Below, in pieces: positions 3,212 through 63,033 of a DNA stretch of 64,000 nucleotides. The position numbers and the translations under genes were made by a program. Under the pieces are notes generated by a model that was not told the DNA's origin, did not search any database, and was given only the letters and a program-made list of their open reading frames with translations. Position 1 is the first letter of the stretch; each line of letters starts with the position of its first letter. Source of the DNA: Ulota crispa (taxonomy: Eukaryota > Streptophyta > Bryopsida > Orthotrichales > Orthotrichaceae); the NCBI GenBank assembly GCA_963920765.1, contig OY987247.1, positions 13,798,471-13,862,470 of the forward strand, given 5' to 3'.

Positions 3212-3448
3212 TTAATTATGGATGAGGCTACTATAATACATATTATGTATGCCGCTGTATAACTAGCATTTGCTATCAACAAAAAGTTTTAATTTGGGAT
3301 CTTGACTACCTCACTAGAACATCATTGATCTATATTCCAACTTTTTTGTTGATCTCAAATGTAACAAAGGTGTGGATGCACTTCACATACAAAAAAAAAT
3401 ATTGTATTGTACTGGTCGCAAAGGGTTGCCTTGTTCTTTAGGGGTTAA
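3212..3448 (+). mobile_element. TTAA element, family A (copy 1)
   Basis: A ~240-bp non-autonomous element. Its right end reads TTTAGGGGTTAA; the left end is decayed (TTAATTATGGATG). The body (catttgctatcaacaaaaag, then ttgttgatctcaaatgtaac, then ggtgtggatgcacttc) recurs in five other places in this window in both orientations. No coding capacity. Confidence 0.65.
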
Positions 3449-4230
3449 GGAAATAGAATTTATATAATAGGACACAATTGTGGAAAATGTGAGATTGTGG
3501 AGGCAAAAACCTTAAAACACTATGGATGTAAAGGTAACATTAATTAATTTTGAATATCATTGCACTATATTTTGATAATAATTTAGATACTTGTTGACAA
3601 GTGTTCACCAATACAACATTGACATTAGGACATGAATTTGAGAATATACAAATTGAACGTTTGACATTTCATAACTTGTGCGTATAATATTTTTGCACCA
3701 TTCTTTGGCATTATCAAAGTGTAGTTCTACTTTACTTGCATCACAAAAATTAAAACTAAAAATCTAACAAACCCTCATTAATTAATGAAGTTTCCTTGGT
3801 ATTAAAGGAAAAAAAAATCATAAACACACAAGTCATTTCAATTAATGTGCTTAACATAGTAATACTAACTTGCACTAATAAGTGAATTTGCAAGGCATAT
3901 TAATAAGGCACTTCACAACAATTTTGATGAATTCAATGTATAGAGGTTTATAATGTTCAAATATTTTTTCAAATATTGTGACTCAAGTGGCCAAACTACT
4001 TGAAGAGACTTTTGAAGCACACATATCACCTATAAAAAGTTTGGTGATGACCATTAATGTGGAGGCAAGTCATTACTCGAAGGGTGACAAAAGCTTGTGA
4101 CCAACATCAAACAATGGTACAAGACATGTCACACCTCCACACTAATTAGATAAAATACACTCAAAATAGACAATAAGGGTTTTGCATTATTCAAAAACTT
4201 ATTCCAAATATAATAAACTTGTGTAGTGAA
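3449..4230. other. Intergenic, no gene seen
   Basis: AT-rich sequence between two transposon remnants; no open frame of note and no identified repeat. Confidence 0.45.
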
Positions 4231-4386
4231 CATTAAAAGAAAAAAGTGTCCTAAACAGTTGGTTCACAACAACTACAAATATCCTAAAGAACTATACAGT
4301 GATTCTAAAATAACTCAATTATAGTTTTTTAGGACATTTGCAATTGTTGTGAACTAGTTGTTTAGGAGACTTTTTTCTTCTATAGC
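4231..4386. mobile_element. Small foldback element, CACTA-like MITE (diverged)
   Basis: Inverted arms of about 50 nt (gtgtcctaaacagttggttc / gaactagttgtttaggagac) around a short loop. It is a diverged relative of the element at 34,338-34,502, which has intact CACTA/TAGTG ends. Here the ends read CATTA and TATAG and no target duplication survives. Confidence 0.55.
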
Positions 4387-4908: not shown

Positions 4909-4961
4909 AATAGAGTGTCACAAGAAGAATTTGAGGGGCTTAGAGCACTTATCATCCTTGC

Positions 4962-5177: not shown

Positions 5178-8100
5178 AGTATGTTCCTTGTTGTGTTTGT
5201 CTCTGAGCTCTAGGGTTTGCGGTTCTGCGCCTTTCGATGTTTTGGAGCGGAGCAGAGAAGTTGTTGGCTCTCCTTCCGGGGCGACAACGTTGTCTTTTGG
5301 GATTGTAAGTTCTGCTTTACAAGCGCTTTTGCTTCTGTAGATTCCTGTGCAAACCTTCGCAAACACTTCAAAGGAAATCACATGTGGATTCCTTGTCACA
5401 TGCAACCAAGACAAGCCACATAGACATGTGACATATTAAAACCTTGATTCCTAGTTGAATATTGAAGGGTTAGCTACTCGATTGTCCTGGAAGGTGAATT
5501 TGACATGGATAGTGTCATATGATTGCCATATATCAATTCTAGCTTGGTTGTTTAAGGTGTTATGCGAGATTGTTGTAGGTGTTCTCTAAACTCTAAACCC
5601 TTGGCTCCATGTTTTGCGGATTTTTGTTGAATTATATCTTTGCAGCTGTTGCATTAATAATGCTTACATTGTTGGAGCATTTTTTTTTAAACTAATTAGT
5701 TTGGACTTGTTGACTAGTACTTCAATGCTTTCAGAATTATATTATAGCTGTGCATTCAAAGCTTTAGTTTGAATTAGGATTGAATCTTCTGTGATGAGAG
5801 AGTGTAGTTCCTTTTGTTTTCTCTCTTGATTGAGTTGCATTTTCTTCCTGTTGTTTTTGAATTAAGTAATGAAGGGGCGTCAAAAATCGTCATTGACTTT
5901 GCTGTTATGCAAACTTTTTCTATAACAAAAGATGATATATTGATCTCATTCTAAAATTGGTTGGTCTGTGCAAGGATCATGGCTCTAAAGAAGCAGGTGA
6001 AGACGGTGAAGAAGAAGAAGGGGCCAAGACTAACGTCTTCCCTTGCTTCTGGCATCGGCCTTAGTGCAAGATCAATGGTGGATGTCATGTACATGGAGGC
6101 AAAATTGAAGAGGGTGGAGTTTGTCAATCCGGAAGAAACCATCACGACGGATTGGTTGCCCCAGGTGTTACATGATTCACTCTTTGAGTGGCATTGTCAT
6201 TTGCATGTGGAGAGTGCCAACTCCAATTTCACTATTCATGTTGTATTAGCCACCGCCAGCAAGTTTTTAGACCTTGCTAACGGTGTTGGTGTGGTGTTAG
6301 TGGAGTTGGACTTTCCACAACTAGGCATAGTGGACCATCTTTATATGGAGAAAGGCAAGGTGCTACAAACACAGGAAGACATGGAGACAAAGATCAAGCG
6401 GGAGATCAAGGCTGTGATGCGGATGGCAAACGATTTTCAGGTGGATCACTCTTTGTGTGTTGAGTACCTCCCGTGCGGCAAAGAAGTATTTTTAGAAGGC
6501 TATTTACCTCTCATGCAAAAATAAAAGGGCCTCTATAATTATATAATTTGACAAATGGACTTATATTAAGGCACTCTATAATTACTTATACGATCTGGGA
6601 GATTTCATTCTTTGTCATGCTATTTTTTTTATAATGAAAAAATTAAATTGTCAAGCAAAGACAGTAAAATATATTGAGTAAAAAGTACCAAAAAAACATA
6701 TGAATATTTGATGGTTGGAATTTAATATTGTAAAAAAATTAATTTTCTTTTTTACATCCTATTTTTTTTGTTAAGACATTTTGGTTGGTATCCGGGTTGG
6801 TTGGTGCTTGGATTGGTATTAGGTTTTAAATTTTTTTCACATCCTATTTTTTTTGTTTGGACCCTAGTTATGGCACCTTTGTTTACAAAAAAAAGTAATA
6901 CTTATTTCACTCCCCATTTTTTTGTTAAACATTATTGTTGAGCTTAAATTTATATTTGATTTTGACACCTTATTTTTTGCTATAATATAGGCTATGACAC
7001 TTTGGTTGGTTTTAACCCCTAAATGTCCAAGGGGGTAAAGGCAAAACATAGATATATTATAAAATAATACTTAAGTAACTTTGATGAAGTTTGCTTCAAA
7101 TGAAAAAACAAGAATCATGATGTTTAGTAATTGCCCATATAGTCAGATATTCACAAAAAGTTTTGGATTTTTATTTAATGAATTTAGAAGCAATATTCAC
7201 CAAAATTACAAATTTTATGCATAGATTTTAAAATTTGATATGATTGGTTAAAAATAGATATTCTCTTGTGAACTTCCAAAATGCAATCTTTTCAAAGGAG
7301 AGAATATCATTAGTTTTCTAAAATAGTAAATTTTACAACACTAGCAAGTATTAAAGTGTTTGTCTTTGAAAAATTCTCCTTGATGGAATTTAACTTGGAT
7401 TGATATGATTCAAGTTGGGATAAAAAGTATTTTTGATTTTCTATTACAAAAAAATAGCTTTTTTTTTAAAAAAAATTCATCTCAAACAGCTCGCAAAAAA
7501 TGAGCAGCAACTAGAAAATGGTTGATTGAGCGCTTAAAGATTAAATTTTGATTTCTTTTCATTTCATATTATTTTTGTTAAGTCGCTTTTATTTTTATTT
7601 TTTATCTAATACAACTTTGCCCCTCAAATACCTAGCTGTCTATACAAAACCATACTAAACACAGTCTTGTGCATATGACAACTCCAAGTCTTGTGCATAG
7701 GACAACTCCAAATCTTGTGCTTCTATATTAGTTGTAAAAAAAAGTTAATGCTTTAGATTTGTAGTGTATTTATATTATTTATATTTAATTTAGGATTTTG
7801 AATGGTTTCTTTTTTATTTGTAAGTTTGTTATAATTTTTATCTCAAATGAATAAAACTCTTGCTATGTTATGCCACTCACCAATTCTAAAATGCGCTAAG
7901 TGATCCACCCGGGGGAGGATTAGCACAAGAGGCATCATCGGGAATGTGCAAAGCAAGAGAAGAGGCACAAATTAGAGCATCTAGAGAACATGAAGAAATA
8001 TTCACGTGATGGTGTGGACCAATTGGAGCGAGACATGAAGAAATTGCAGGTGAGAAACTACAAGTTGTTCACCTGGTTTGTCAACTAGACGTTTGCTATT

Positions 8101-14666: not shown

Positions 14667-14897
14667 TTAACCCTTAAACGTCCATAGGGCATAGTATATA
14701 CTCTGATGTGTAATTGTCATTTGCTACCAATAAAAAAAAAAGTTTGGGATCTCAAGTAGCTCACTCAAATCGCAATGATCTGTTCTCCAATTTCTTTGTT
14801 GGTCTCAAATGTAGTGGAGGTGTGGATCCATTCCAAATACAAGAAAAAACCCTGTATTGTATGGTTGCAATGGCACGCTTAGACATTTAGGGGTTAA
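14667..14897 (+). mobile_element. TTAA element, family A (copy 2)
   Basis: 231 bp including both TTAA flanks. The left end is TTAACCCTTAAACGTCCATA and the right end CATTTAGGGGTTAA. The body matches the other family A copies (ggtgtggatccattcc, tgtattgtatggttgcaa). Its right TTAA abuts the element at 14,903. Confidence 0.8.
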
Positions 14898-16308: not shown

Positions 16309-17990
16309 TTAAACCCTAAAGGACCACTTGTCCCTACAAGGGACAAACAAGATTTTGGACAAGGTCATGCTACTACAATTTATGACCAAATTTTACAATT
16401 TTTTCTCTAAGTGAGGGCCACTTTATACTTAGGGCCGGATTGAGGGCCGGCCCAAAGTTTTCAAATTCCAACCAATAGGATTGCTCGGTTCTTCCAAATC
16501 TGGCACAAGGGCTTTATACTTGGGCCAGGCCAAAACTACAATTATCTTAGGTGGCATCCTAGTTGACAATATTTTGGCGCCAAAACTTTGGGCCCAAGTC
16601 ATGGAATCGGGACGAGGTTTTAGGAGGCCCAAACTCCAAACTTGGGCCGCATTGAGCTAATAAATTAATAAAAAATGATTGAAAAAATCCAAAAAATCCA
16701 AAAATTTGGAAAAAAAAGTTTTTTCTTAAAGAAAGTTTTTTTTTTTCAAAAAAAAAGTTAAAATTTTAATTCAACATTATAATTTGATGTTCCCAAAGTT
16801 CCCAAAGTTCCCAAAACTTCCAATTTATAGTTCAAAAGTTATAAGGGTAAACATGTGAATTTTAGTTGGAAGAGTAGCTTGGGCATGCCATTTTTTATTA
16901 ACTTCTCCCAAGCGGAACCAATGAAGGGATGCCCCTCAATGGAATCTATCCAAAGCAATAGTGTACTAAATAAATACATTATTGTATTTGATAAGGGAAT
17001 TGATATGCGTACCACACCTTCTTGACTATCCCATCACACCCCGGGGTAAATTTTAGATTTCTACCATCAAATAGTTGAATTTGAGAATTTGGAATTCAAA
17101 TTTGGACTCAAGGATTGTGATTTTGTCTAGAAACACAAAAAAGTTCTAATTGAACAACACCCAATGAAAAAGCTTATCTTTTTATAAACAAAAGTAAAAG
17201 TTATATTCTTCCCCTAAGCTAAACTTTTTCATTGGGTGTTGTTCAGCTACAATATTTTTTTCTGGTTCTAGACAAAATCCAAGCCTCTAAGTCCAAATCT
17301 GAATTCCAAATTCTCAAATTCAGCTTTTTAATGGTAAAAATCTAATATTTATGTCAGGGTGTGGTGGGATAGTCAAGAAGGTGTGGTATGCATATCAATT
17401 CCCATTTGATAAATACATTAACCTTTGAATTGCAATAGCTATTAGAGATTTGGTTTTTTTCCCAATTATTTTTCTTGAGATTGTCAATGAAGCTAAACTC
17501 TTCCAATCCATCGCTTGGATTTTTAATTTCTTTAACATTTTTTTAGAAAACTTGGTTGGCAAAAAACCTCTATTTAGTGTGAATTTCAAGCACATGTTTG
17601 CAATGCAGGGCCATGAAAGGTGTGTTCCATGTCTTGGATGATCACAAACACTTGGAAAGAGATGCCTAACATGATTTAGAGTATGTTGGACAAATCACTA
17701 CAACACCTATAGTGCAAAAACTATTCACCACATGTGGTCAAAGGCACCTGAGAATTTTAGGCATGGGTAAAAAAAACTTTATGTATTACCTTCAAATGAT
17801 CATGTCTCTCAATCCGTATGGTCAAACTTCACAAAATTTTCACGGTATGTTCTTGAATGCAAATACTACAAGTTCCTAAGGTTAGATTTGATCATTTTTC
17901 AAAAAAGATTGTTTTTGAGATCAAAATCACTAGAAACGACAATTTTGAGTCTTTTTTGAGAAAAAATGTGCTTGGTCCTTTAGGGGTTAA
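16309..17990. mobile_element. TTAA element with nested MITE (element D)
   Basis: The left end is TTAAACCCTAAAGGACCACT and the right end is GGTCCTTTAGGGGTTAA, forming matching inverted ends on TTAA. The interior is non-coding. It is interrupted by the 9-bp-duplication MITE at 16,995-17,403; without that insert it is about 1.26 kb. Confidence 0.65.
16995..17403. mobile_element. Foldback MITE, Mutator-like (family C, copy 1)
   Basis: A 409-bp near-palindrome. The ends are gggaattgatatgcgtacca and its mirror tggtatgcatatcaattccc; arms of about 190 nt include cttcttgactatcccatcac and caacacccaatgaaaaagct. It is flanked by a perfect 9-bp duplication ATTTGATAA (16,986-16,994 and 17,404-17,412), the target length made by Mutator-type transposases. 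Relatives are at 33,161 and 53,228. Confidence 0.88.
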
Positions 17991-17998
17991 TATTCCAT

Positions 17999-19034: not shown

Positions 19035-19275
19035 TTAACCCTTGAATGACCAATCAGCCCTTTGCAACCAATACAATATGGAGTATTTTTCTTGTATTTG
19101 GAGTGCATCCACACATTTATTACATTTGAGATTAACAAAGAAGTTAGAATATAGATCAATGATGTTCTAGTGAGGTAGTGAAGATCCAAAGTTAAAACTT
19201 TTGTTGGTAGCAAATGCCTGTTATACAACAGCATACATAGTATGTATTATATTAGCTTGGTCATTCAAGGATTAA
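19035..19275 (-). mobile_element. TTAA element, family A (copy 3, reversed)
   Basis: The left end is TTAACCCTTGAATGACCAAT and the right end TCATTCAAGGATTAA. The internal sequence is the reverse complement of copy 1, including the aaatgcctgttatacaacag block. 241 bp with TTAA on both sides. Confidence 0.8.
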
Positions 19276-20300: not shown

Positions 20301-21231
20301 TTAACCCCTAAAGGACCATGGCCTTTATTTTGTCAAAAGGCATTTAAAACTGCCATTTTTATGGCAAAGAGTAAAAAAGTTTGAAGATTGGTCTTTTTGC
20401 ATATCTAACTGTCGGATCTTGTAATAGACTTGTATAAGAATGTGTTATTCAAACTTTAAAAACTTTGACCACACAAATTGCAAGATATTTGCGCTCAAAG
20501 TGTAAAACAAGCTTTTTTGCACACCTTGCACAATTAGATAATTTGACTTTGAACTTTTATAACTTAAAATTTTTGCACCATAGAGTTTTGAGGTTTATTT
20601 TTGTATGGTGGGGAATTGAGTTGAGAATCTTTGGAAAAAAACCAAAACAAAAAATACTTAATTTTCATTCTTGAAAAAACATTAAATAGAAGAAGGTTTG
20701 AGATTGAACAAAATCTTACGTTGTTAATAACTTTGCAATGGAATTGAATCACAATAATCCCAATGGTGAGATTGTTCTAGCAAGCAATCTTCACTCTTTC
20801 CAATATTTTTTTTTTGCAAAAATGTTAAATTTGCATTCAAAAATGAAGTTTATAAGTTATTTTTTCAGAGCAAACCCACGCCTACCTGCAAACTAAAACT
20901 TCTCATAACTTTCATCTCATCTATCAAAATTGAATGATTCAAAGCTCCCCACGTCTATATAAGTCTAAAGAACCTATTTCAGATTTTTATTTAAAAAAAT
21001 ATGAAATTTTTAAAGAAGTTTTTGGCTATCTGATCTCACTTGTTTTTAGAAATTCATGCATAACTTCTTCAATAAATGTCGGAATGAAGAAAAAATTACA
21101 TTCCCATGTAGATCTTTGAATTCCTCACCTTCAATAAAAGTTTCAGAAAATCACGCAAATTGGTTTAACCATAGGTACATGCCCAAAATCCAATTGTCCC
21201 TTGAGGGGACAGTTGGTCCTTTCGGGGTTAA
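20301..21231 (+). mobile_element. TTAA element, family L (copy 1)
   Basis: 931 bp. Left end TTAACCCCTAAAGGACCATG, right end GGTCCTTTCGGGGTTAA. It is nearly identical, in opposite orientation, to 29,508-30,439; a 61-codon open stretch inside is identical in both copies but has no recognisable product. The near identity implies recent movement. Non-autonomous. Confidence 0.87.
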
Positions 21232-21233: not shown

Positions 21234-21600
21234 TTAACCCCTGAACGTTGAGGAGGACAAAAATGTCCTCCAACTCAAAAAAAAGATATTGTGATTCAGA
21301 AGAAAAAAAAAATTCATCTACTTTGTTATTAGAAGTGACCATAAACACATGATTCATCATGGAAGACAAAACAACTACCTCTTGAGATGTATTCATTTTT
21401 TTTGTAATCCAAATTGTGATAAGATTCAAAAACATGGTGTTACCTCCCAAGTTGTCCTTCTTGCAATATTCAAGAGGGCACCATGCACTGTTGACTTTTT
21501 CAACTTTTTGAAGCAATACTACTGGTGCCCATGTGCAAAAGACTGTAGAACGCTACAAGCAAGGCAAGGTACAGTGATCCATCCGTCTTTTAAGGATTAA
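21234..21600. mobile_element. Possible short TTAA element (M)
   Basis: Begins TTAACCCCTGAACGTTGAGG two bases after the end of family L copy 1. A candidate right end is tcttttaaggattaa at 21,600. The second end is weak, so the extent is uncertain. Confidence 0.38.
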
Positions 21601-23069: not shown

Positions 23070-23302
23070 TTAACCCTTTATTGTCTGAGAAGCCCTTTGC
23101 AACCAGTGCAATACGGGGTATTTCTCTTGTATTTGGAATCAATCCACACCTCTACTATATTTGAGACCAACAAAGAAGTTGGAGAATAGATCAATTGGTT
23201 CTAGTGAGCTGCTTGAGATCCCAAATTCAATTTTTTTATTGGTAGCAAATGACAATTATATGTCTGCATACATACGGTTTTCTATGGGCGTTTAAGGGTT
23301 AA
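23070..23302 (-). mobile_element. TTAA element, family A (copy 4, reversed)
   Basis: Left TTAACCCTTTATTGTCTGAG, right GGGCGTTTAAGGGTTAA; the body is the reverse complement of copies 1, 2, 5 and 6. Its right TTAA (23,299-23,302) is also the left TTAA of the next element. Confidence 0.82.
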
Positions 23303-29499: not shown

Positions 29500-31335
29500 T
29501 TAACCCTTTAACTCCTAAAGGACCAACTGTCCCCTTGGGGAATAATTGGATTTCGGGCATGTACCTATGGTTAAACTAATTTGCGTGATTTTCTGAAACT
29601 TTTATTGAAGGTGAGGAATTCAAAGATCTACATGGGAATGTAATTTTTTCTTCATTCCGACATTTATTGAAGAAGTTATGCATGAATTTCTAAAAACAAG
29701 TGAGATCAGATAGCCAAAAACTTCTTTAAAAATTTCATATTTTTTTAAATAAAAATCTGAAATAGGTTCTTTAGACTTATATAGACGTGGGGAGCTTTGA
29801 ATCATTCAATTTTGATAGATGAGATGAAAGTTATGAGAAGTTTTAGTTTGCAGGTAGGCGTGGGTTTGCTCTGAAAAAATAACTTATAAACTTCATTTTT
29901 GAATGCAAATTTAACATTTTTGCAAAAAAAAAATATTGGAAAGGGTGAAGATTGCTTGCTAGAACAATCTCACCATTGGGATTATTGTGATTCAATTCCA
30001 TTGCAAGGTTATTAACAATGTAAGATTTTGTTCAATCTTGAACCTTCTTCTATTTAATGTTTCTTTTAAGAATGAAAATTAAGTATTTTTTGTTTTGGTT
30101 TTTTTCCAAAGATTCTCAACTCAATTCCCCACCATACAAAAATAAACCTCAAAACTCCATGGTGCAAAAATTTTAAGTTAACAAAGTTCAAAGTCGAATA
30201 ACCTAGTCATGCAAGGTGCAAAAACGCTTATTTTTTACACTTTGAGCGCAAATATCTTGCAATCTGTGCGGTCAAAGTTTTTAAGTTTTAAATGACACAT
30301 TTTTATACAAGTCTAGTACAAGATCCTATGGTCAGAGATGCAAAAAGACCAATTTTAAAACTTTTGAACTCTTTGCCATAGAAGTGGTAGTTTTGAGTGT
30401 CTTTTGACAAAATAAAGGCCATGGTCCTTTAGGGGTTAAGGACCACGCAACCATATTTTGGTCGCTGGGGGTGGTTTTTGGCCTATAGGTTGAAATTGCT
30501 CAATAATTTGGAATTAGGTTTTGAAGAACGCATGTAATCACAAGAATTTTGCATCCATCTAAAAAAATAACGATGCAATTGGGTATGTGTATTGATAAAT
30601 AGTGGTGTTTATACGGCATGACTTCAAAATACGTATCCATTTTTTGTCAAAGATGGATCAAAGCAACAACACAATACATCAAACATCCAAGAAGAATGTC
30701 AAATTTCAATTGCACAATTCTAAAAAAAATCATATTGCTTAAGAAATATGCTTGTATCTATACGGTAGTAATATAATTGTAGTATTTGAAGATCTATTGA
30801 AATATTGTTGTCATTTTGGCTTTAAAATTTGTCATCCAACTTTTGAGGCCTATTCTTGATTGTTTTCACCAATTGGATTTTCTAGAATAATTATCAAAAT
30901 TCTTGTAGAACCATTTTGGGGTAGCAAAGAAAGTGGGTTTTTTGACCCTTTTTGTCCACTTAGCTACACCTTGTGATTGCTATTTTTGTCTATTTTGTGT
31001 GAAACCAGTCTTAAATTAAAGGTGGAAAACCCTACTTTCTAGAAATGTAAGGCTCTTTTCAATCAAAGCTTGCATGCAGCGTTAAAATTCAAAACCACAT
31101 AAGCATGAAAAACTAGAGATTTTTCACATATAGCTCACTCAATCATAATAATGTTTCACCTCCAACTGTACATCTAGCTGAAATTTTGGTGCTTTACAAT
31201 AAACAAGGTGTACTTCCCATTCGTATTGTTGGAGTATTGAAAATGGGTCCATATTTGAGTCAATTGCACATCTAAGCTTACATCCCCTATTTTTAGTAGA
31301 ATTTGTGAAAATGGGTGTGGTCCTTAAAGGGTTAA
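29500..31335. mobile_element. TTAA element N, split by family L
   Basis: The right end read inward is TTAACCCTTTAAGGACCACA. The left end is the same word split in two: TTAACCCTTTAA at 29,500-29,511, and TTAAGGACCACGC from 30,436, with a complete family L copy between. N alone is about 0.9 kb and non-coding. Its terminal repeat contains an internal TTAA that served as the target. Confidence 0.85.
29508..30439 (-). mobile_element. TTAA element, family L (copy 2, reversed)
   Basis: 932 bp between TTAA (29,508-29,511) and TTAA (30,436-30,439). The left end is CTCCTAAAGGACCAACTGTC and the right end GGTCCTTTAGGGG. It is nearly identical to the reverse complement of 20,301-21,231, with a few substitutions and small indels, inserted into element N. 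Confidence 0.9.
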
Positions 31336-34502: not shown

Positions 34503-34987
34503 AATGGAACTATGGAAAGACAACGGTCTTGTTGCAATTCTATAGGGGTATTTTTTCAATTTCAAAATTTACAGGGGTACTTTTCAAAATACAAAAAGTT
34601 ACAGGGGTATTTTTCAAATTGTCCCTTAAAAAAATATGGGGATAGATTTTTAAAGCCATAAATTGATAGAAGTTAGACATGTAATGACCTTAAATCTCAT
34701 TTGTTTTTGGTGACCAACTTTTTAGATTTGACATGTGAAATGAGGATTGGAAGATTTCAATTCACTTTTGAAGTTTTAACACTCTCATGTTCAAACATTA
34801 TGATCTTTCAAACTATAAGTGATATTGTTGTGTTTTCTTATCTCATGTAATCTCTGACATGTTAGTTTAAATTTGTACAGTTACAATTGAAAAAAAACTT
34901 GCTGAAATTTATGAAAAGTTTGATTGATTGTTTGGTTTTATGAAAATTCCTAGAACCTCAAATAGACCTTGGACATTTAGGGGTTAA

Positions 34988-37134: not shown

Positions 37135-37371
37135 TTAACCCTTCAACGTCCCAAGGGCATACTAGTAGATACGTTGCCGTATATTTGGCATTTTGTTACA
37201 ATAAGAAATATTAACTTGGGATCTCAAATAGCTCACTAGAATTGCATTTATCTACATTCTAACTTCTTTATTGATCTTAAATGTAGTAAAGGTGTGGATC
37301 CATTCCAAATACAAGAAATATACCTTGTATTATACTAATCGCAAAGGGCCTTTTTGACATTTAAGGGTTAA
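37135..37371 (+). mobile_element. TTAA element, family A (copy 5)
   Basis: 237 bp. Left TTAACCCTTCAACGTCCCAA, right TTGACATTTAAGGGTTAA. The body has ggtgtggatccattcc and the other family A words. Its right TTAA is also the left TTAA of the next element. Confidence 0.84.
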
Positions 37372-38105
37372 CCCCTCAAGGCCCATGCAGCATATTTTGA
37401 GCTGTATGTTGATTTTGGGCAGGTCACAACAAATGGGTTTTGCATTTTTTATTTGTTTTATTTTCACACATGAAGTACCCAAGGAGTAGCTTTGAGGCTC
37501 AACAATTTTCATAACTTCTGACTACATGGTTCAAAAGTTATTGCATGAATTTTTGTTTTCTTTGCTTATGTGGGCAGCCCGGCAGCTCAAAAACTTTTTT
37601 ACAAATTACTTTTCAAGTTTTTTTTAAAAAAAAACTGGTTCTTTAGACTTACATATAAATGGGAAGCTTTGAATCATTCAATTTCCATTAATGAGATGAA
37701 GGTTATGAGAAGTTTTAGTTTGCGGGTAGGTGTGGAGTCAACCTACCCGCAAACTAAAACTTCTCATAACTTTCATCTCATTAACAGAAATTGAATGATT
37801 CAAAGCTTCCCATCTATACATAGATATAAAGAATGAATGAAAAAAATACCAAAATTGAAATATAATTTTTAAAGAAGATTTTGAGCTGCCCAGGCTGCCC
37901 GCTCAAGCAAAGAAAACAACAAATCATGCAATAACTTTTAAACCATCTAGTCAAAAGCTATGAAAATTGTTGGGCCTCAAAGCTACTCCTTGGGTACTTC
38001 ATGTGTGAAAATAAAATAAAATAAAAATGAAAAACCCATTTGTAGGGACCTTCCCAAAATCCCTAAATAGCATAAAAAAAGGTTGCTTGGCCCTTGAGGG
38101 GTTAA
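37368..38105. mobile_element. TTAA palindromic element, family E (copy 1)
   Basis: 738 bp, left TTAACCCCTCAAGGCCCATG, right GGCCCTTGAGGGGTTAA. Both arms, about 365 nt each, are mirror images around 37,738-37,741 (gcgggtaggtgtgg / acctacccgc), so the whole element is a hairpin. Flanking TTAAs are shared with neighbours on both sides. Confidence 0.88.
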
Positions 38106-39702
38106 CCCTCAAGGCCCAGGGAGTGTATTTTGAGCTGTCTAGTGATTTTGGGCAGGTCACAACAAATGGGTTTTGTATTTTTTTTTAAATTTTATTTTCA
38201 CACATGAAGTACCCAAGAAGTAGCTTTGGGGCCCAACAATTTTCATAACTTTTGACTAGATGGTTCAAAAATTACTGCATGAACTGTTATTTTCTTTGCT
38301 CGTCAAGGCAGCTCGGGCAGCTCAAACACTTCTTTAAAAATTACATTTCAAGTGTGGTTTAAAAATAATAATTGGTTCTTTAGATCTATAGTGACTACCA
38401 AAATTGTTTCAATGTTGTCTCAATGTTTGCTTAGATGCCAAGTTTTTTTCAATATCTTCACTATATATAAGTGGCATTTTATCCTCAGATATATTGTGTG
38501 TGATCCTTGTGCAATCATGATCAAGCTTACCAAAATTTTAGTTACTAATGACCAAAATCCTATAATTGGTAAATTGTTTTGTATCAAAATCAAAAAAGTT
38601 GATTAAAAAACATTGGTGATGAATCTTTGAGATTTGATTGCATGGGTATGTTGGAGACATTGATATGCACATCTTTGCTTCAAACAAATATTTCCAAATG
38701 AATTCTAAAAATATTCAAATTTCAGGCAAAATTTAGTAAAATTGATAATTCTTCATATAATCTAATTTTTGGCAAAATAAACATATCATCATGTTTAAAG
38801 GTACAAACTCAATCATAGCATATGATTTACTTTTCCAAAAAATAGATTATATGAAGAAATATCAATTTTCCTAAATTTGGTTTGAATTTTAAATTTTTTT
38901 TAAATTTTTTTAAAAAATTTTTAAAATTTTTTTAAAATTTTTTTGGAAATACTTGTTTAAAGCAAAGATGTGGGTATGGATGTCTCCAACATACCCATGC
39001 AATCAAATCTCAAAGATTCATCACCAATGTTCAACTTTTTTAATTTTGACACAAAACAATTTACCAAAAATAGGATTTTGGTAATTAGTAACTGAAATTT
39101 GGTAAGCTTGATCATGATTGCACAAGGATCACACACAAAATATCTGAGGATAAAATGCCACTTATATATAGTGGAGATATTGAAAAAAACTTGGTGTCTA
39201 AGCAAACATTGAGACAATATTGAGACAATTTTGGTAGTCACTATATATATGTGGGAAGTTTTGAATCATTCAATTTCCATTAATGAGATGAAAGTTATGA
39301 GAAGTTTTAGTTTGCAAGTAGTTAGACTCCATACCTACTTGAAAACTAAAACTTCTCATAACTTTCATCTCATTGACGGAAATTGAATGATTCAAAGCTT
39401 CCCACATATATATAGATCTAAAGAACCAATTCATTAAAAAAAAACCAAACTTGAAATGTAATTTTTAAAAAAGTTTTTGAGCAGTCTAGGCTGCCCTAAC
39501 AAGCAAAGAAAACAACAGTTCATGCAGTAACTTTTGAACCATGTAGTCAAAAGTCATGAAAATTGTGGGGCCTTATAGCTACTCCTTGGGTACTTCATTT
39601 GTGATTTTTTTAATAAAAAAACCAATGTACAAGTCACTTGAAGTGACTTGCCCAAAATTGCTAGAAAACTGAAAAAAAGCTGCTTGGGCCTTGAGGCATT
39701 AA
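38102..39702. mobile_element. TTAA palindromic element, family E (copy 2), with insert
   Basis: Begins TTAACCCTCAAGGCCCAGGG and ends GGGCCTTGAGGCATTAA. It is the same palindrome as copy 1, with its centre near 39,327 (gcaagtag..ctacttg). An 851-bp foldback at 38,391-39,241 interrupts the left arm; without it the length is about 746 bp, matching copy 1. It is joined to copy 1 through a single TTAA. Confidence 0.85.
38391..39241. mobile_element. Foldback element nested in family E copy 2
   Basis: Ends gtgactaccaaaattgt and acaattttggtagtcac, with mirrored arms of about 300 nt around an A/T-only centre near 38,900-38,940. It is absent from family E copy 1 and from the opposite arm. The site is (TA)n-rich; comparison with the intact arm gives a net gain of four bases (TATA). 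Superfamily undetermined. Confidence 0.75.
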
Positions 39703-39747: not shown

Positions 39748-40678
39748 TTAACCCTTTAGTGCCCGTCAACCATTTGGGGGGGCACCTCAAATTTTCACTA
39801 TATTGTCGACAAAACACATTCAAGTACAAAATTTGTGGTTTTAAAATCAAATTGGACCGGACATATCAAAGCTATAAACTTTGGCAACATGAATATTAAA
39901 AAAAGTTTGATCTATCAAAACGATTCCACGTGAGGATTGTGAGAAGCTTGACGATCCAAAAAAACTTGTTGTGAAAAAACGTGAGACACTCTAACTAGTT
40001 GTCAATCGTGCAATTGAAACTTTTGATAGTGGTGGGATTTGTAGAGGCTATTGCCCCATTCTAGGTTATTGCATTCCAAAAAAAAATTCAAAATTTGAAT
40101 CAATCTGTGCATTTCACGGCATGATTTTTGAAACTAAGCATTGGAAGAATACGAACGTGGCCACACATATACGGTTGAATACAGTATGCATGGAACATGT
40201 TTCCACAAAATCCGATTGGTCAATATCATCTACATTGGGTGTCATTTGAGGTATAAGGTCCCACATTTAGCATTGCAAACCTTCAGAGCCTAAGGAATCC
40301 TAGAATGCGTAATGTTGTAGCTGAAATATGCTATCTGTAGAACTTCTAAATAAACCATGCATCTTTTGCCCAATTGCTAAAGAGTTAGCATTGGATACTT
40401 TGGGTACAATATGTGGGCTTTGGGGCCATGTTGCGGTTGCACTAAATTAGTATTTCATTTGTTACACCCGTATGAGATTCCCAGCTTCATATGTAAAACA
40501 CGCATAGCTACCATGTTTCTTTATGCCTTGCTTTGAAATTTGTTCCAGTAGGAGCACAAACTAAACCCCCAACTCTGTTACGTTCTGTGTTTTTGCAAAC
40601 TAAATAGAACAAAGATGACAAGAACCACAAAGTACCAAAATCAACCCAAAAGTGGTCAACCGGGCACTAAAAGGTTAA
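39748..40678. mobile_element. TTAA element, family F
   Basis: 931 bp. Left TTAACCCTTTAGTGCCCGTC, right AACCGGGCACTAAAAGGTTAA. The terminal inverted repeat is over 20 nt, with a near-match of CCCTTTAGTGCCCG to typical piggyBac ends. Interior non-coding; single copy in the window. Confidence 0.78.
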
Positions 40679-47051: not shown

Positions 47052-47301
47052 TTAACCCTTAATGGACCGTGCTACTATATTATACTATAATACACAGTAT
47101 ATATGCTGCTACATAATTGGCATTTGCTACCAACAAAAATTTTAATTTGGGATTTTGACTACCTCATTAGAACAACATTGGTCTATATTCTAACTTTTTT
47201 GTTGATCTCAAATGTAATAAAGTTGTGGATGCACTTCAAATACAAGAAAAATACCCTGTATTGTATTGGTTGCAAAAGCTGCTCGGTTGTTCAAGGGTTA
47301 A
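47052..47301 (+). mobile_element. TTAA element, family A (copy 6)
   Basis: 250 bp. Left TTAACCCTTAATGGACCGTG, right GGTTGTTCAAGGGTTAA. The body is closest to copies 1 and 3 (tttgctaccaacaaaaat, gttgtggatgcacttc). Confidence 0.83.
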
Positions 47302-48841: not shown

Positions 48842-49591
48842 TTAAGCCCTGAGCGCCCAGGCCATTTTCACCTAAATCAGGCTTTTGGGAGGCCTACAAC
48901 TTTGATGCATTGTGTCTTAGTCAATTGGATGATTTACCATTGAAAATAGTGGAATATCTACTTTGAAAATAACTTGCAAATTTTGGGAACAAATTATCGT
49001 GGGAGATGGGAGATTATAACATTGGATCAAACAACTTGTGATGGTAAAATCTTAGTTTTGGCAAGTAGTTGCTATTTGATGATTTTTACAAAATTTTATA
49101 AACCCTTGATTTATCTCAATTTTTGTTGTTAGCAAGGTTAGATGTGAATGCATACACTTGCAAATTATTGAAGACTTTACTTCTTTGTATGCTAAGTTTT
49201 AGGGCTTCAATTTGCTATTGCACGAAAAACAATGACCAACACAATTAGTGAGGGTTGCCCTGACAAGGATTTAGAACATGCTTAAACCCGTACTGGTGAA
49301 TTTCCCGCTACCACAAAGCACATGCAAGGAAGCTTACAGTGAGTACTGACTAGTTGTAGCTTGTAAGACATTGCTTGCCACCACTCCTCCTATGGTGTTT
49401 CACCCAATTAAAACTCTTGAGACACATATATATTATTTGACTTGCCTTGTCATTACTCCATTTGCATGGACCACTTGTATACCTTGATAATTGCAGTTTA
49501 TAACTAGGTCAAAAAATTAGATCCAATACCTCAAACATACATGTGACAAATGTGAGGACCATTTTGGTCCACTGGGGTGTTCAGGGGTTAA
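48842..49591. mobile_element. TTAA element, family G
   Basis: 750 bp. Left TTAAGCCCTGAGCGCCCAGG, right GGTGTTCAGGGGTTAA; inverted ends extend to ccattttca / cattttggtcca. Single copy here, non-coding. Confidence 0.72.
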
Positions 49592-50459: not shown

Positions 50460-51380
50460 TTAACCCCTAAAATTCTTTCATATTTATAGGCCCAAAATTG
50501 CTTCAAAATACTAGTCCCCAAACTAGGGTCAAAATATTCATTGAAACTTACTTTTTCACAAATCCAACCGTAGGATCCTTTGGTTGACTTGCACAACTAC
50601 ATTGTCTTTAAATTTTAGAATGAGCATCCCCACCAATTGCAAGATCATTGTGCCCAAACTTCAAAATGTAGGCTTTTCTAATCCTTCTAGAAGGTGAAGT
50701 TTTGTTTTCCAAACTTTTTAGAGAAAAACACGTATGTTGTATTTCTTGTGCAATCATTTCAATATGTTGGAAAATGGGTTAAAAGCATATATAAAAAAAT
50801 TTAACCACAAAAAACTTTGGATTCATTTTTACAAAAGTTGTAAAGTGAAAGGTATTGATGAATGAAAGATGTAACTAATATGCTAATAAGTTATGGAAGA
50901 ATATGAAAATTGTTAATCTCAATGGTGAGAATGCTCTAATAGACAATTAGTAACTTAAGTTTTCATTTTCATTTGAAAATTTTCAAAATTGAGAGTAAAA
51001 GATAACTTTATATGTTTTTTCTACCCTCTTCCTACCTTCATTGCCCGCAAAAGAAAACTCCTTGTTACTCTTACCTCATTATTTGGAATTGAGTGATTCA
51101 ATTTTTTTTAGTAGGTATCATTCTATAAAATTATATAAAAATAAAAAATAAAAATTTTAGAATATATTTTTTGCTGCCCGGTTTGACATTGAAATTGAAA
51201 AAACCTTATAACTTTTGCATTACTTATCAAAATAACATGAAATAAAGCTTCACATGTAGATTATGATGAGTAGCATCCATCCTAAAAATTTCATGAAAAT
51301 TTTCCAAATTATGGAGTCAATAGAGCCTGCCTGAGTTCTCATAAAGCCCAAAGTGGGCTCCTTGGGCCTTTAGGGGTTAA
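50460..51380. mobile_element. TTAA element, family I
   Basis: 921 bp. Left TTAACCCCTAAAATTCTTTC, right TTGGGCCTTTAGGGGTTAA. The interior has family E-like words (gctgcccggtttgac, cttataacttttgcattac). Its right TTAA directly abuts a minus-strand coding remnant. Confidence 0.72.
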
Positions 51381-56020: not shown

Positions 56021-59000
56021 ATGGCGACGTACTTGCTACATGGGACTCTGGTAGTCACAATCTACGATGCCGAGAATATTGCGACACAGGAGCGCAAGAC
56101 TGGTAGCGCTCCTGCATTTTTCAGAAGGGTGAGCGTCTACAAGACATTCTTCAATTGTATGATTGAATTCCATTTCTCAATCTGTGATTATCTGTGTCTA
56201 GTCCAAATCCTTAAAGGTGAGGAGATAAATAAGTTATTTCAGTTTTTGAGTTTTAGCAATTGAAACCCTGTTGATTCCCTTGTACATTTTGGATACTTCG
56301 TTTTTCTGCTTTGTGTGCCATTGTATTTGTGTTATACGATGGTTACAGATACAATGTAAACTTGATAATATGCTACTGTTTTTCTTAACTACATCTTGCT
56401 GGTTGATTATGTATTGAACCTCTGAAGTGTTCACAAGACAAAGAAGAGAAATTACATGCACTATAAAAGGCTAGATCTCTTACATGTTTAGTGCATGTAA
56501 GGCCAATAAGATCTCAATGCACATATCCAAACAGTACTTCTAGGTCCTTGACTTATTCCAATACTTTTGTGGCAAGGCTTGTCATCTTATTCTCCTTTAT
56601 CAATGTCAAGTATTGTATTGAATGGGGTTTCAAGTTTTGCTAGCTAAAGCGCTACACCTTACAGTGGTACTTGCCTAGATGCAAGCGTCTATCCTTTAAA
56701 GAATGCATGCACCTTGAGAAATGCCACGTGGACATGTAAACCCTTAAAATTCTTCGTATTGTGTAATTTTGTAAAAATCAAATATTGTTATTGTCCCTAT
56801 TAGACAAACAAGGTTTAAACAACTTTAACTTCATGTTCTTGTTGTATTTGTCAAGGTAGACAACTCAAGGTAGACGACCTTGTTACTGGCCTGCTAGTGG
56901 ACCCTAGTGGACTCTACGAAGGTTTTTGTGATCAAAATACTAAACTTCTTTAAGCTTAATTAAATTTTTTCTGAGGTTGACCTGTATGAAACGGGTGTTG
57001 TATGTTGGTAGATCATTGAGACCTCAGAGGAATTATTGAGGATGGGAAAGGGTTATAGTCAATACTATGCCACCGTGGATTTGGGGAGGACTAGAGTTGG
57101 ACGTACACGTGTGTTGGAAGGCGAACCCAAAGACCCAGTGTGGAACGAGACCTTTCGCATATATTGTGCACATGATGTGCCCGATTTGACAATTTCTATC
57201 AAGGACGCTGCCATTGTGGGAACTGTTGTGATCGGTCGCGCAAAGATCCCGGCTATTGATCTCCTCTCTGGCAAGCCCTCTTCTTCTCTTGCTCTGAAGT
57301 ACCTTCCAAATTCTAAGATTCCAGATACTTGTTTAGTCTCATCACGTTCTAGAACATTATAGATTACCCTCAATTTTCTCTATAGTTGCATTGTAGTTGG
57401 CATTATAGGTTGTCACTTGCTTGTAATAGTTGGTTGAACCCAAGGTTACTGTAGACTGGGAGGCAGGTTTATCAAAACCAATGCCATACATTGGAATACG
57501 CAATCTCAAAGCCAAGGATGAAAAGACACTGACTCGCTCCCAAGGGAGAGAATTGGGATTCCGTTCTTTGACCAATTATTAGATACTCTCTCTTGGAGTT
57601 GTGTAGACCTTGTCTTGATGCAGTAAAACTACAGTATCAGCTTATTAATCTATAATTATCAGGGAACGGACTTGACTCTGTTCATGTAAAGACCTTGAAA
57701 TTGGCCCAAACTCCTCTACCAGGATCTAGTTTACTCTTGACCTTGAATTGACCTCCTTGTGCAAAACGGGCTTCCAGATTCCAGATGATCCTTACCTGAG
57801 AATAGAAGTATCCTAGGTACCGAAATGCTTCATTGAATTAGTAGTAAGGATCCAAGGTGTTCACAGTTCCTTTCAGGAATGTTTTGGTTGTTTGAGGATT
57901 TGTGTAAGGCATGTATGCATTCTTGCCGTTTGCCTGACAATGCGCTTTGTTTCAACAGGCCAGAGGATTGATAAGGCTTACGACCTCTACAACGACCGCA
58001 CTGGCAAGCTAAACCGAGGCCGAATACGGTTTTCTATTCAATTTTGGGAGGCAAATCGTGACCCATACTGGGGGAGAGGGATTCTGGATTCACAGAACCC
58101 AGGCGTGGAGTATTGCTACTTCCCACAACGAAAGGGCTGCAAAGTGACGCTGTACCAGGACGCTCACATGATGGACAATTTTCTACCTAACATTTACCTG
58201 GCTAATAATCAGGTCTACCAGCCAACTCGCTGCTGGGAAGACATCTTCGAAGCAATCAACAACGCTCGGCAACTGATCTACATCACCGGCTGGTCGGTCT
58301 ACACCGAGTTCACTCTCTGCCGAGACCCTCACCGACACGTTCCAGGTGACCCTCCCAGTGTTGTTGTTGTTGCTTTTTTTTTTTCCAATGTTAGCACCGG
58401 TTCTATAGCCTTCAAACATTCTCTAACTCTCCATAGAAGGTCGTTCTCTACCTCAAAAAAAAGATTTTCGTTGTTGAATCACCTGCCTGTATGTACATGA
58501 AGAGTGCTAGGAAAATTTGGATTCAATGGTATACAATGGTACGGGTGGGAAATCTCTTACTGCTGGTTGATTGCCTCTGAAGGATCCCTTAAACGATATT
58601 AGTGGAGAAGTTCATCGAAAAATTATAGGGTAGTTGGAATCATGCACGCTTCTCCGCTGAGGAAAACAATTAGATTATTGTAGAACTAAAATGGGATAGA
58701 AACACTTCAATCACTATAAAGACTTGGTACATGGGGTTGGAAGAAATTCTAAACAGCTTCGTAAAGGACCTTAATGAGGTCACGATTGTGTTAAGAAGGA
58801 TTCTGGATTCATGAGCAGTTCCAAGGGTGCGTAGGGATTTTCTCAAGAATGTTGTGTACATTTGATACACTTTTGGCTCGTTTTTTACCTTTTTTTGTGT
58901 AGCAAATCCTACACTTTTGGCTACATTAGCTAAGAAGTCGATCTTTTAGCCATTTGGATAAAGCTTGTAGTTTACTGCAGGTGACGAGGGCTTGACACTG

Positions 59001-61933
59001 GGGGAGCTGCTGAAGCGGAAGGCAGATCAGGGAGTGCGAGTGAACATCATGGTGTGGGACGACAGGACATCCTTTTGGCTGCGTCAGCAAGGGCAGATGA
59101 TGACCCACGACGAAGAGACCGCGGTCTACTTCCAAAACACCAAAGTCAACTGCTACCTTTGTCCTCGAAACCCTACAAGCAGCTTAACGTACTTGCAACA
59201 AGCGCAGATCGGGAACCTCTTCACGCATCACCAAAAGTCTGTGATTGTGGATGCTCCGGTACCAGGAGGGGGTCCCTTCTCGCCGCAGAGAAGGATTGTG
59301 AGCTTTGTGGGAGGGCTGGACCTCTGCGACGGCCGCTACGACACGCAGTACCATTCTCTATTTCGAACTCTCAACGGGGCGCACAAGCAGGACATGCATG
59401 CGGTGTTTTCTGAGACCTCCATTGAGTGTGGCGGACCTCGTGAGCCCTGGCACGATATTCATTGCAAGCTGGAAGGTCCCATTGCTTGGGACGTCTTGTA
59501 TAACTTTGAGCAGAGGTGGCGCAAGCAGGCTGGAAGGCGCTTGGGCGATGCTCTGTTGCCCATCGTTGAGATGGGCCTTGGTCCTGTCCTTGCTACCTTT
59601 GAGGACGACCCGGAGGCTTGGAACGTGCAGCTGTTTCGTTCCATTGATGCAGGTATGGCTGGTTCTCGCCAATTTGATATTCGTCAGATGGCTGCTGATG
59701 CTAGAAACTTGTTACAAAGTTCATTTGCAGTAAAATCTTAACATCCTCCTCTCCTTGGTCTAGATTGAGTATTGTATATGGCATGCTACTGCTGTTATTT
59801 CTTTTAAGTGCTTTTAGTTGCTGCGAGTAGTACTGAGTTGCAAAGTAACAAGGAGGTAGTGACATATGCACACCCAAGTCGTAGCACGCCGCATGCAGTT
59901 TTTAATCTGGCGTAATCAACGACGAGAGTAATTAACAAATGCAAATAAATACACTTCATGACGGTATTTGTTGAATACACGCAAGTGAGGTTGTGCTCCA
60001 TACGTTCCTGAGAAGCTAAAACTGACTGACTTTCAAAACATGTTTCTATTATTCGAAATGGAAGCCCTTTTTCGACCATGTAAGCACTGAACTTGAGGCT
60101 GTTTCTTGGATTTGTTGGAATTTTGCAGGGGCTGCTTTTGGTTTTCCAGACACTCCCGAACAAGCAGCACTGCAGGGCTTGATAAGCGGGAAAGACAACA
60201 CCATAGACCGCAGCATCCAGCACGCGTACGTCGACGCCATCCGGAGAGCCAGGAACTTCATCTACATTGAGAACCAGTACTTCATCGGCTCCGCGTTCGC
60301 CTGGGACACCAAGCAGGAGTCCGGAGCCTACAACCTCATCCCCATGGAGCTTGTGCGCAAGATCGTGAGCAAGATCGAAGCTGGCGAACGCTTCGCCGTG
60401 TACATCGTAATGCCGTTGTTCCCCGAAGGAATTCCCGACAGCGTCCCCGTGCAAGAGATTCTGGCCTGGCAGAGACGCACGTTCCAAATGATGTACAGAC
60501 AAATTGCGTTTGCGTTGCGGGCGAAAAGGATATACGATCAGCATCCTAGAGAGTATCTGTCTATATTTTGCTTGGGGAACCGGGAAACGAAAGGGCCTGG
60601 GGAGCAGGCTCCAACGAAAGAACCTGTCGACGCTTATTATAAATCTGCCCAGGAGCACCGTCGGTTTATGATTTATGTGCATTCCAAGATGATGATCGGT
60701 ACGTTTCTTCTTCCTCACTTTCAATTTTCACTGAACTTTTAACCGTTTAAAGATTCTGAATTGTTCACTCCATTAGGGGCCTGAAGTCCATACTCAAAAC
60801 CTAGTCCTAAATTTTTCTTAAGCAACCACGTTATCAAAGGACGCCATCTTGTAGGTTTTCTGAAAATCTTGGAAGAGGGGCTGAATTTTTGGGAAACTTC
60901 TGGATGTTAAGAATCTCTTCTTGTTACCCATCGTCCTTACGATCATCTTGCCATTGTAAGTAGCTACCTGAAGTTCATAGGTAGCTGCAAAAGGATCAAA
61001 GTTTTTTTTTCTTCTGGTTTTTATGTGTTACCAAAGATTCCTATGTTCTTCATTAAGTTCCAATCATGACACCTCTTAATGAAAACATCCTCAGTGCAGC
61101 CCTGTACTGTTGGCCTCTAAAGGGAATCAGTAGGACAGATTCTATATCACTCAACTACAGAATTTGCAGAGAATGCCTTCTCTTGCAGCAACGCAATGGA
61201 GAATATATCAATGCTTTAGAGGTCAATTGTCTCGGAATGCGTCGAGGAATTTGACACTGTGGTGTTCATATTTGTTGGGAAGAAGTTCCTCAGTGCAGCC
61301 CTGGCCTCTAAAGTGAATCAGTGGGGCAGATTCTATATCACACAACCACAGAACTTGCAGAGAATGTCTTCTCTTGCAGCAACGCAATGGAGAGTATATC
61401 AATGCTTTAGAGGTCAATTGTCGCATCGAGGAATTTGACACTGTGGTGTTCATATTTGTTGGGAAGAAGTTTGGCTAACTTGAGCTAACACTGGTGTTGC
61501 AGTGGACGACGAGTACATAATAGTAGGCTCGGCCAACATCAACGAGAGGTCCATGGACGGAGCGCGCGACTCCGAGATCGCCATGGGCGCATACCAGCCC
61601 TGCTACCTGGCCACGCACCAACCTGCAGCGGGCCAGGTCCACGGCTTCCGCATGGCGCTCTGGTACGAGCACACAGGCTTCCTTGACGGCTCCTTCTTGC
61701 AGCCGTGGAGCCTGGAGTGCGTGCGCCGCATGAACCACCGCGGTGACGAGCTCTGGGCGTTGTTCACACAAGAGGACGTAGTGGATCTCCCTGGTCATCT
61801 CTTGTCTTACCCCTTCAATATCGGCCTGGACGGATCCGTGTCCGAGATTCGAGGCTCGGAGTGTATCCCTGACACCAAGGCCAAGGTGCTCGGTAGCTCC
61901 ACTTTAGCCCTCCCTGACATCCTCACCACGTAA
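56021..61933 (+). CDS. PLDALPHA: Phospholipase D, alpha type (C2-PLD)
   Basis: Hydrolyses phosphatidylcholine and related lipids to phosphatidic acid; peripheral membrane and cytosolic, Ca2+-dependent through a C2 domain. Exons 56,021-56,128, 57,012-57,270, 57,959-58,345, 58,981-59,652, 60,129-60,698 and 61,503-61,933 give 808 residues, the usual length for PLD alpha. The C2 domain (about 1-150) opens with [16 protein letters not shown]. The first catalytic HxKxxxxD is HQKSVIVD (335-342) and the second HSKMMIVD (660-667). IENQYF (522-527), the alpha-type KIEAGERF and the C-terminal LPDILTT are present. All junction phases match. Five introns are used; the second (57,271-57,958) starts with GC instead of GT, giving G|GCAAGC and restoring LLSGQRID. 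Intron 5 contains a tandem duplication. No frameshift or stop: it appears functional. Class alpha is favoured over beta/gamma/delta by the start, ERF motif and C terminus. Confidence 0.95.
61090..61471. repeat. Tandem duplication in PLD intron 5
   Basis: Two direct units, 61,090-61,288 and 61,289-61,471, both starting ctcagtgcagccctg and ending gttgggaagaagtt. They differ by two deletions of about 5-10 nt in the second unit and scattered substitutions. No coding frame is conserved. Confidence 0.92.
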
Positions 61934-62796
61934 ACCTTTCCACTTTTTGCATCAAGAGTCATTCTTTCATGCTTCTATTCCGAAACTGAGTTCATCATTT
62001 AACTTGTTTCGTAACATCTGTCACGTGCAACACTTTTTTTGCGACTGTGGAGAAGCCTGGAGTACATTTGCAGGAATAAGGTCCTGAGCAGACGATGAGC
62101 TTTGGGCGATATTTGTTCGAGAGGACGTCGCCTTGCGTAATAATCCCTTTCAGTGTTGGCCTGGATGGATCCTTTTTGGAAATTCGAGGCTCGGAATTAA
62201 TTCTGAGTCTGAAATGGCGAGGTACTTGGTAGCTCCTCCTGAGCCATCCATAACATTCTGACCATGTATATCAACCAGCTTTTCCTCTTCTTCTTTTTCT
62301 GGAGGTAAATCATTTCGGAAATTGTAATAATTGTTGCTGCTTCATAGCGGCGACATGAAGGATTGCACTTGGTGCAGCTAATAAGAACATCTTCAATAAA
62401 CTCTTCATTCACCGAAAGGTATTGCTTCTTTTCTTGTTGTATTGATATCGTGAGAATGGCTATAGTCTATTTGTTGTAAGAGTAATAGTGGTCTACCACC
62501 TTATCCTTGATAATAGGAGGTAGACTTGGTAGCTCAAATATATGAGAGTGAGCATATTTGCTGCGTATAAACTAAGGGAGAGGCCTTGTAATATCAAAAG
62601 TTACGTTTAGAGTGGGTGTGAGGAAGTCTAAGTAGGTTGGTAGTTGGAACCATAGCTAGGAGCAAATAGGAGTTGTATATCAGTAGAATAAAGTGTATTA
62701 AATTTCAAGTTAAGGAATTTTGCCCATTTGAGGTTATTGAAGTGAAGTGCAATGCTGATTCTTCTTCTCAATGGAAAATATGCGTGCATACAAGGA
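61934..62796. other. 3' flank of PLD
   Basis: Probably includes the 3' untranslated region. A short stretch near 62,085-62,210 (gacgatgagctttgggcgat, ggcctggatggatcc, gaggctcgga) is a decayed duplicate of the last PLD exon (61,743-61,860), roughly 350 nt downstream of it. No intact gene. Confidence 0.6.
62085..62215 (+). pseudogene. Partial duplicate of the last PLD exon
   Basis: Words gacgatgagctttgggcg, gaggacgtcg, cccttt..gt.ggcctggatggatcc and attcgaggctcgga parallel the exon 6 sequence for [14 protein letters not shown] and [15 protein letters not shown] in the same order, with intervening deletions and frame loss. It is a short dead tandem copy. Confidence 0.6.
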
Positions 62797-63033
62797 TTAA
62801 CCCCTGAACAGCCCATCGGGCATCTCTGGCCGTATATACAGCCGTATTTGAATTGTTCTGAGGGTTTTTCAAAAAAAATTATGCACCGACCATTGTATAA
62901 CCCCCACCATTGAATAACCCTTCAATATGTATGGTTGTAACACTTAATTTCCAACTAATTCAAACTTTTAAATATTGATTGTGACCGTATTTGGTACCGT
63001 ATCTCTAGAACCCAAGGGCCCTTCACAGGTTAA
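62797..63033. mobile_element. Short TTAA element (P)
   Basis: 237 bp. Left TTAACCCCTGAACAGCCCAT, right GGGCCCTTCACAGGTTAA: inverted ends on TTAA. The interior is unrelated to family A. Confidence 0.7.

Follow-up and report, generated by a model that had tools for sequence, protein, structure and literature searches.

TTAA-bound elements in a moss genome very probably belong to the piggyBac superfamily

A 64,000-bp stretch of the genome of the moss Ulota crispa carries many elements bounded by TTAA that are, with a probability of about 0.96, DNA transposons of the piggyBac superfamily mobilised by a DDD transposase of the same genome. This stretch (hereafter the window) lies at C6:13798471-13862470 of a genome of 274,817,297 bp (~275 Mb) in 157 contigs, has a GC content of 36.5% and contains 461 TTAA sites. 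The copies in the window are read as non-autonomous: MITEs, and longer elements whose interiors are unrelated, with a TTAA target and terminal inverted repeats (TIRs) of the CCC type in common. Elsewhere in the genome, elements of 5.0-6.7 kb carry the gene for a DDD piggyBac transposase, flanked by ends of this type. The transposase would bind the short ends, excise the element and insert it at TTAA, duplicating these four bases, a cut-and-paste cycle that we infer from the known piggyBac reaction together with the empty sites described below. Because the families have mainly ~13-16 terminal bases in common, many of them were probably moved in trans by a single set of transposases.

To define the ends, we scored the 13 bases adjoining each TTAA of the window, on both sides, against CCCYTNAANGNCC, with a single TTAA allowed to bear two ends. 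Ends of the consensus type CCC(C/T)TNAANGNCC were found 47 times at a score of at least 7/10, 39 times at 8/10 or better, 26 times at 9/10 or better and 14 times at 10/10. Markov sequences (20 per order) yielded a mean of 0.45 ends at 8/10 for order 1 and 0.1 for order 3, and the other 15 palindromic tetramers bore 0-7 ends each at 7/10 or better, compared with 47 for TTAA. Both controls are far lower than the observed counts and rule out a chance origin; the TTAA-bound CCC(C/T)-type ends that a first-pass annotation had described from the sequence are thus real (39 at 8/10 or better versus 0.1-0.45 expected). CCCTAAA is the plant telomere unit and is contained in the element end, which leaves a chance or telomere-like motif without any transposition as an alternative. 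We consider this vanishingly improbable, as the ends are tied to TTAA (47 versus 0-7 for other palindromes) and continue into further conserved bases, and we reject it because the TTAA-bound ends delimit homologous copies that have empty sites.

By choosing end pairs with TTAA at both borders, we assembled 17 window elements that together span 10,298 bp, or 16% of the window. Short inverted repeats with CCC at the start were seen at the termini of window elements and of transposase elements. For 12 of the 17 window elements, at least 8 of 14 positions are the same in the left and right ends, and the elements below this level are those starting at 3212, 17418, 21234, 30436 and 38102. When any blastn match at 1e-8 was allowed to join two elements, the 17 formed eight groups without mutual match, and they formed ten when the match had to span 40% of the shorter element; for 26 candidates (the 17 and nine less certain ones) the same rules gave 11 and 14 groups. 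The previous estimate of at least eight unrelated interiors is therefore correct on the strict count. Families B and E have ~150 bp of internal sequence in common.

Family A comprises six window copies of 231-250 bp. The MITE at 14667..14897 (+ strand, 231 bp, TTAACCCTTAAACGTCC ... TTAGACATTTAGGGGTTAA) was recognized by end scoring, pairing and blastn, and the copy at 47052..47301 (+, 250 bp) by homology and pairing; a third, at 19035..19275 (-, 241 bp), is taken up below with its empty sites. The copies at 23070..23302 (-, 233 bp) and 37135..37371 (+, 237 bp) abut the next element, with one TTAA common to both neighbours at 23299 and 37368, respectively, an arrangement also present at 38102. 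The sixth copy, at 3212..3448 (-, right end at 3445), shares 85% identity with the copies at 19035 and 47052, but its left end has decayed to a TTAA without CCC next to it; the first-pass statement that TTAA and CCC occur at every element holds overall and fails at this border. Two family B elements, at 20301..21231 (+, 931 bp, TTAA at both ends) and 29508..30439 (-, 932 bp, identified by homology and pairing), are 94.2% identical in opposite orientations, and their homology stops at TTAA. Family E is represented by the element at 37368..38105 (+, 738 bp, ends CCCCTCAAGGCCCA / CCCCTCAAGGGCCA, from end scoring and pairing) and by a relative at 38102..39702 (-, from homology and pairing) that is split by a palindromic repeat.

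End scoring and pairing also placed an element at 21234..21600 (+, 367 bp, ends CCCCTGAACG / TCCTTAAAAG), and pairing of ends placed those at 48842..49591 (+, 750 bp) and 50460..51380 (+, 921 bp, ends CCCCTAAAATTC / CCCCTAAAGGCC); in the element at 39748..40678 (+, 931 bp, ends CCCTTTAGTGCCCG / CCTTTTAGTGCCCG), 13 of 14 end positions agree. Several elements have relatives in loci that we fetched from the genome (L numbers). The element at 7012..7429 (+, left end TTAACCCCTAAATGTCCAAGG, right border candidates 7534 and 7541) has a 79% match to L023 351-777, which stops at TTAA in L023, and the 573-bp element at 17418..17990 (+, right end CCCCTAAAGGACCAAG) lies in a segment, 17404-17993, with a 73% match to L011 6926-7511 that extends as far as L011's TTAA. 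The 900-bp element at 30436..31335 (+), in which the left CCC end was not seen, is homologous to L014 935-1834 and L024 7574-8474. A 237-bp element at 62797..63033 (+), found by pairing downstream of a phospholipase D gene, has a 75% match to L021 1176-1355. The family C sequence at 32001..34987 (+, TTAACCCGTAAATGCCCAAGG ... CCTTGGACATTTAGGGGTTAA) is a foldback mosaic, so the description of the elements as simple TTAA-to-TTAA units stands overall and does not extend to this one.

Other repeats accompany the elements in the window. The right flank of the MITE at 14667 (14894-14967, with GGTGGACACCCCC) is a dispersed repeat of which inverted copies occur across many contigs. A 1.48-kb insertion at 6428-7909 has inverted ends like GGTGGATCACT and splits one of the copies of a repeated segment (5179-9440 versus 24369-27530, up to 94% identical). 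This insertion is a different TIR element, with the 7012 piggyBac element inside it, and for this reason we dropped it as a case of a TTAA empty site.

The first-pass annotation had proposed a search of the whole genome for a DDE_Tnp_1_7 transposase, and this search (PF13843) returned at least 120 matches, all over the cut-off, with a best E of 1.3e-73 and with copies between TTAA-CCC ends like those of the window; the 120 are a lower bound because scoring covered 116 of 528 first-look candidates. No PF13843 matches were found in 14 control genomes. When compared with the PDB, L019, with a 389-aa reading frame, matched piggyBat (9c0f, 2.6e-24) and piggyBac (6x67, 7.6e-20) with the catalytic Asp residues aligned. 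The catalytic triad of piggyBac is given as D268/D346/D447 in the accessible portion of PMC7351741. Across 24 loci, the three catalytic positions are D in 22, 17 and 21, respectively, and all three are D in 16; the 12 departures consist of 11 N and one E. In-frame stops were read in 110 of the 120 transposase rows, the 10 stop-free rows representing eight loci. In seven transposase reading frames, several of them truncated, PF13843 was the only Pfam family at E<=0.01, and a second family, for the C-terminal cysteine-rich domain, was not detected at that threshold. The match in L030 is in two pieces ~270 bp apart, an intron-like split of this plant copy that differs from piggyBac and piggyBat. 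L030 (1801-3132) and L031 (2574-3791) contain transposases without in-frame stops in the search rows and with DDD intact, and there were no consensus-like TTAA-CCC ends around them in the 5-6 kb fetched; these two are possibly domesticated genes or old copies.

In the accessible text of PMC12732532, piggyBac is described mainly from animals, fungi and protists, as would suit sequences that entered the data by contamination or through a single, very recent horizontal transfer from an animal. Such an origin is highly improbable. The 120 matches are confined to the large contigs C1-C11, and the window elements are on the same stretch as a plant-type phospholipase D gene that lies outside the transposons (exons within 57892..61933, +, PLD_C E 4.4e-26; 58992-59741 matches Arabidopsis PLD alpha 1 at E 8.1e-83). 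The other 23 transposase loci are 30-48% identical to L019, which means that several old transposase lineages are present. Contig placement, plant gene neighbour and copy divergence together led us to reject contamination. In one scan, no relatives of the L019 transposase were found in viral contigs.

We examined the borders of the transposase-bearing elements in 10-kb stretches around 20 transposases and in four smaller stretches, using coordinates in transposase orientation. In 13 of the 20 loci we could assign both ends, and these end pairs enclose PF13843 in elements of 5,025-6,687 bp; this was not possible in the other seven 10-kb loci or in the four smaller stretches. The placement of L011, one of the 13, is doubtful, and we do not lean on its right border because it may belong to a nested relative of the window element at 17418-17990. 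L009 on C3 (aligned 1898-6924) and L018 on C10 (aligned 1898-6923) are 90.5% identical over 5,029 columns, from TTAA border to TTAA border (one of them TTCA), and no match between the two was found outside the element borders. The transposase lies between the same ends, in this pair with homology from border to border and in the 13 loci with placed ends, L011 among them being doubtful. Homology also reaches both TTAA-CCC borders in L023/L024, the left border and a right border (TTAA in one copy, TTGA in the other) in L012/L022, and a right border in L025/L026.

Within elements, left and right ends agree at 10.5 of 14 positions versus 7.9 of 14 when shuffled (0 of 20,000 permutations), a figure that is inflated because the pairs were partly picked for similarity. 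The best-pair end score had a mean of 14.95 at transposases (n=20) versus 15.78 at arbitrary window centres (n=27); since ends are everywhere and the control is as high, this score is no proof alone, and we rejected the test as proof of ends around transposases. The argument is carried by homology borders and empty sites. A TTAA target is not unique to piggyBac, and Kolobok and a Sola group have it likewise. Another superfamily of this kind could have moved the window families while piggyBac was present independently, in keeping with the observation that window families and transposase copies share mainly short ends. With Pfam scans limited to the transposase reading frames, we judge this very unlikely, as the transposase-bearing piggyBac elements themselves have window-type ends: the L012 end CCCCTAAATGCCTAAGG is of the same kind as the end at 23299 in the window, CCCCTAAATGCCCAAGG.

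To look for sites without the element, we searched the genome with the joined flanks of 16 elements (eight window elements and eight transposase elements) and scored the best 40 of 4,756 candidates. The joint of L027, an element that encodes a transposase with all three Asp, falls in a high-copy palindromic repeat, and of the 81 rows found with it, 72 run across the joint, with identities of 75-93%. We fetched ten loci and aligned 18 rows, of which 17 have one TTAA where L027 reads TTAA-element-TTAA; L035 and L037 overlap, so this corresponds to 15 of 16 distinct empty copies. As L027 rows dominated the first scored candidates, the search was repeated with the eight window elements only, excluding the seven transposase elements besides L027, and the best 40 of 538 candidates were scored. 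The MITE at 19035..19275 has two empty sites elsewhere in the genome, on C11 and C2, which align without gaps at a 4-bp joint, TTCA in each case. Empty sites of the other seven window elements were absent from the best 40 of these 538 candidates. L021 lies in a tandem repeat, two units of which are free of it; the joint shows a 2-bp gap in one of them and reads CTAA in the other. L013 has a single weak empty site at 71% identity with a 1-bp gap. Duplication of the TTAA target that the first-pass annotation had described is thus seen as the single TTAA in 15 of 16 distinct empty copies for L027 and, for the window element at 19035, as a 4-bp joint reading TTCA.

The palindromic repeat that was the target of the L027 insertion is a high-copy family (L035-L044) with a related stretch at ~38465-39170 in the window, where it interrupts a family E element. 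Four search rows of this repeat end at the same TTAA, and other copies of it may carry insertions there.

Tourist MITE targets are given as TAA/TTA in the accessible part of PMC10004981, and an alternative is that the window copies are Tourist-like MITEs of PIF/Harbinger whose 3-bp target (TTA/TAA) was mistaken for TTAA. The genome is rich in PIF/Harbinger transposases, with 150 matches to DDE_Tnp_4 (PF13359) and many rows stop-free, although this domain is shorter and the number is not directly comparable with that for PF13843; a 4-bp TTAA joint could also be parsed, formally, as three duplicated bases followed by an additional base of the terminus. However, the CCC...GGG symmetry of the ends requires all four bases to be part of the target, and L027, the best empty-site locus, has PF13843 with all three Asp between such ends. 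On these two observations, and with borders examined at the PF13843 loci, we set PIF/Harbinger aside as the main mobiliser and regard it as extremely unlikely. Transposase genes, CCC ends, TTAA borders and empty sites instead bear out the first-pass proposal, in its past tense, that a piggyBac-like transposase existed in this genome.

Genome-wide, the exact sequence TTAACCCYTNAANGNCC occurs 24,790 times versus twice for a reversed control, and TTAACCCCTAAANGNCCAAG 8,413 times versus 0 for its control. The density of exact ends in the window (14 ends) is ~2.4 times the mean of the genome. Extending the window's proportion of good to exact ends (39 to 14) to the whole genome would give ~69,000 ends or ~35,000 elements, which is arithmetic and not a count. 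Two exact ends stand back to back on one TTAA in 256 places, versus ~78 expected if ends were independent, and this excess may represent a nesting preference or plain clustering.

L009 and L018 are separated by 417 transitions and 60 transversions; at 95 of 176 CG positions, one copy has CG and the other TG or CA. As read from the two sequences, this pattern fits cytosine methylation and deamination, and because of such CG decay, plain identity overstates age. The D-to-N changes of the transposases would also fit methylation decay. Silencing followed by decay would fit the differences in the one copy pair examined.

The elements resemble piggyBac of Trichoplusia ni and piggyBat in their TTAA target, their short CCC-type inverted ends and their PF13843 DDD RNase H-like transposase. 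Beetle piggyBac elements have ends such as CCCT and CCCTTT, and intact ones measure 2,074-3,465 bp in the accessible text of PMC12732532; the plant elements found here, at 5.0-6.7 kb, are longer. The first-pass remark that an established piggyBac population in land plants was not known to its author needs softening in the light of reports at the level of labels. In the accessible portions of these papers, PiggyBac is among the superfamilies in all groups studied, land plants included (PMC4438587), a review gives a PiggyBac MITE class for angiosperms (PMC10004981), and the repeat table of Ceratopteris richardii has a PiggyBac row with 1,230 copies and 122,417 bp (PMC6890710). The angiosperm MITEs are similar to the window copies in being short non-autonomous elements grouped as PiggyBac, but the grouping is by internal sequence, TIR and TSD, and the accessible part of the review mentions no PiggyBac transposase (PMC10004981), whereas the present genome on its own provides transposase copies, element borders and empty sites. 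C. richardii is likewise a non-seed land plant with PiggyBac-labelled repeats, but what its table offers, in the part available, is a label without element structure and a small total (PMC6890710).

A 2022 review of land-plant transposable elements (PMC9033089) has six TIR superfamilies in plants, and a MITE survey of 207 plant genomes (PMC12550479) has five major superfamilies and one special group; in the accessible text of each, piggyBac occurs 0 times. The EDTA-TIR-Learner scheme has five TIR classes, according to the accessible description in one survey. Our literature search, which covered open-licence papers from partial listings, turned up no report of a moss with a piggyBac population. 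Because label-level reports of plant piggyBac exist, what is new here is the host and the large population, and the superfamily itself is known. With at least 120 transposase matches and ~25,000 exact ends, schemes of five or six superfamilies would mislabel or miss a whole superfamily in this lineage. We regard it as an evenly balanced proposition that mosses harbour an old, multi-lineage, high-copy piggyBac complement, its non-autonomous copies numbering roughly in the tens of thousands; that this complement survived repeated silencing and does not stem from one recent transfer; and that it was overlooked because the plant TIR classes leave piggyBac no place. The population opens to testing whether piggyBac arrived in plants once or often and how plants silence it. 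PiggyBac vectors serve marker excision in plants, according to the accessible text of PMC4309413, and whether an endogenous transposase acts on such vectors is also testable.

Two further observations concern the host sequence. Direct repeats are present in the window at 54806-55239 and 61088-61471, with offsets of ~147 and 199 bp and 88% identity, and the second of them lies between exons of the phospholipase D gene. The LEAFY DNA-binding domain has two matches in the genome, ~1.2 kb apart on C4, in which the specificity sites read KPKMRD and GAWCQACY; Asp at 312 and Cys at 345 are what we take to be the type II (moss) form. Together with the phospholipase D gene, this sequence evidence points to a plant host, most likely a moss and probably one of the Bryopsida. 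In the accessible portion of PMC6588583, the source of these site numbers, type II LEAFY is assigned to Bryopsida, both types to early-diverging mosses, and type II also to one liverwort.
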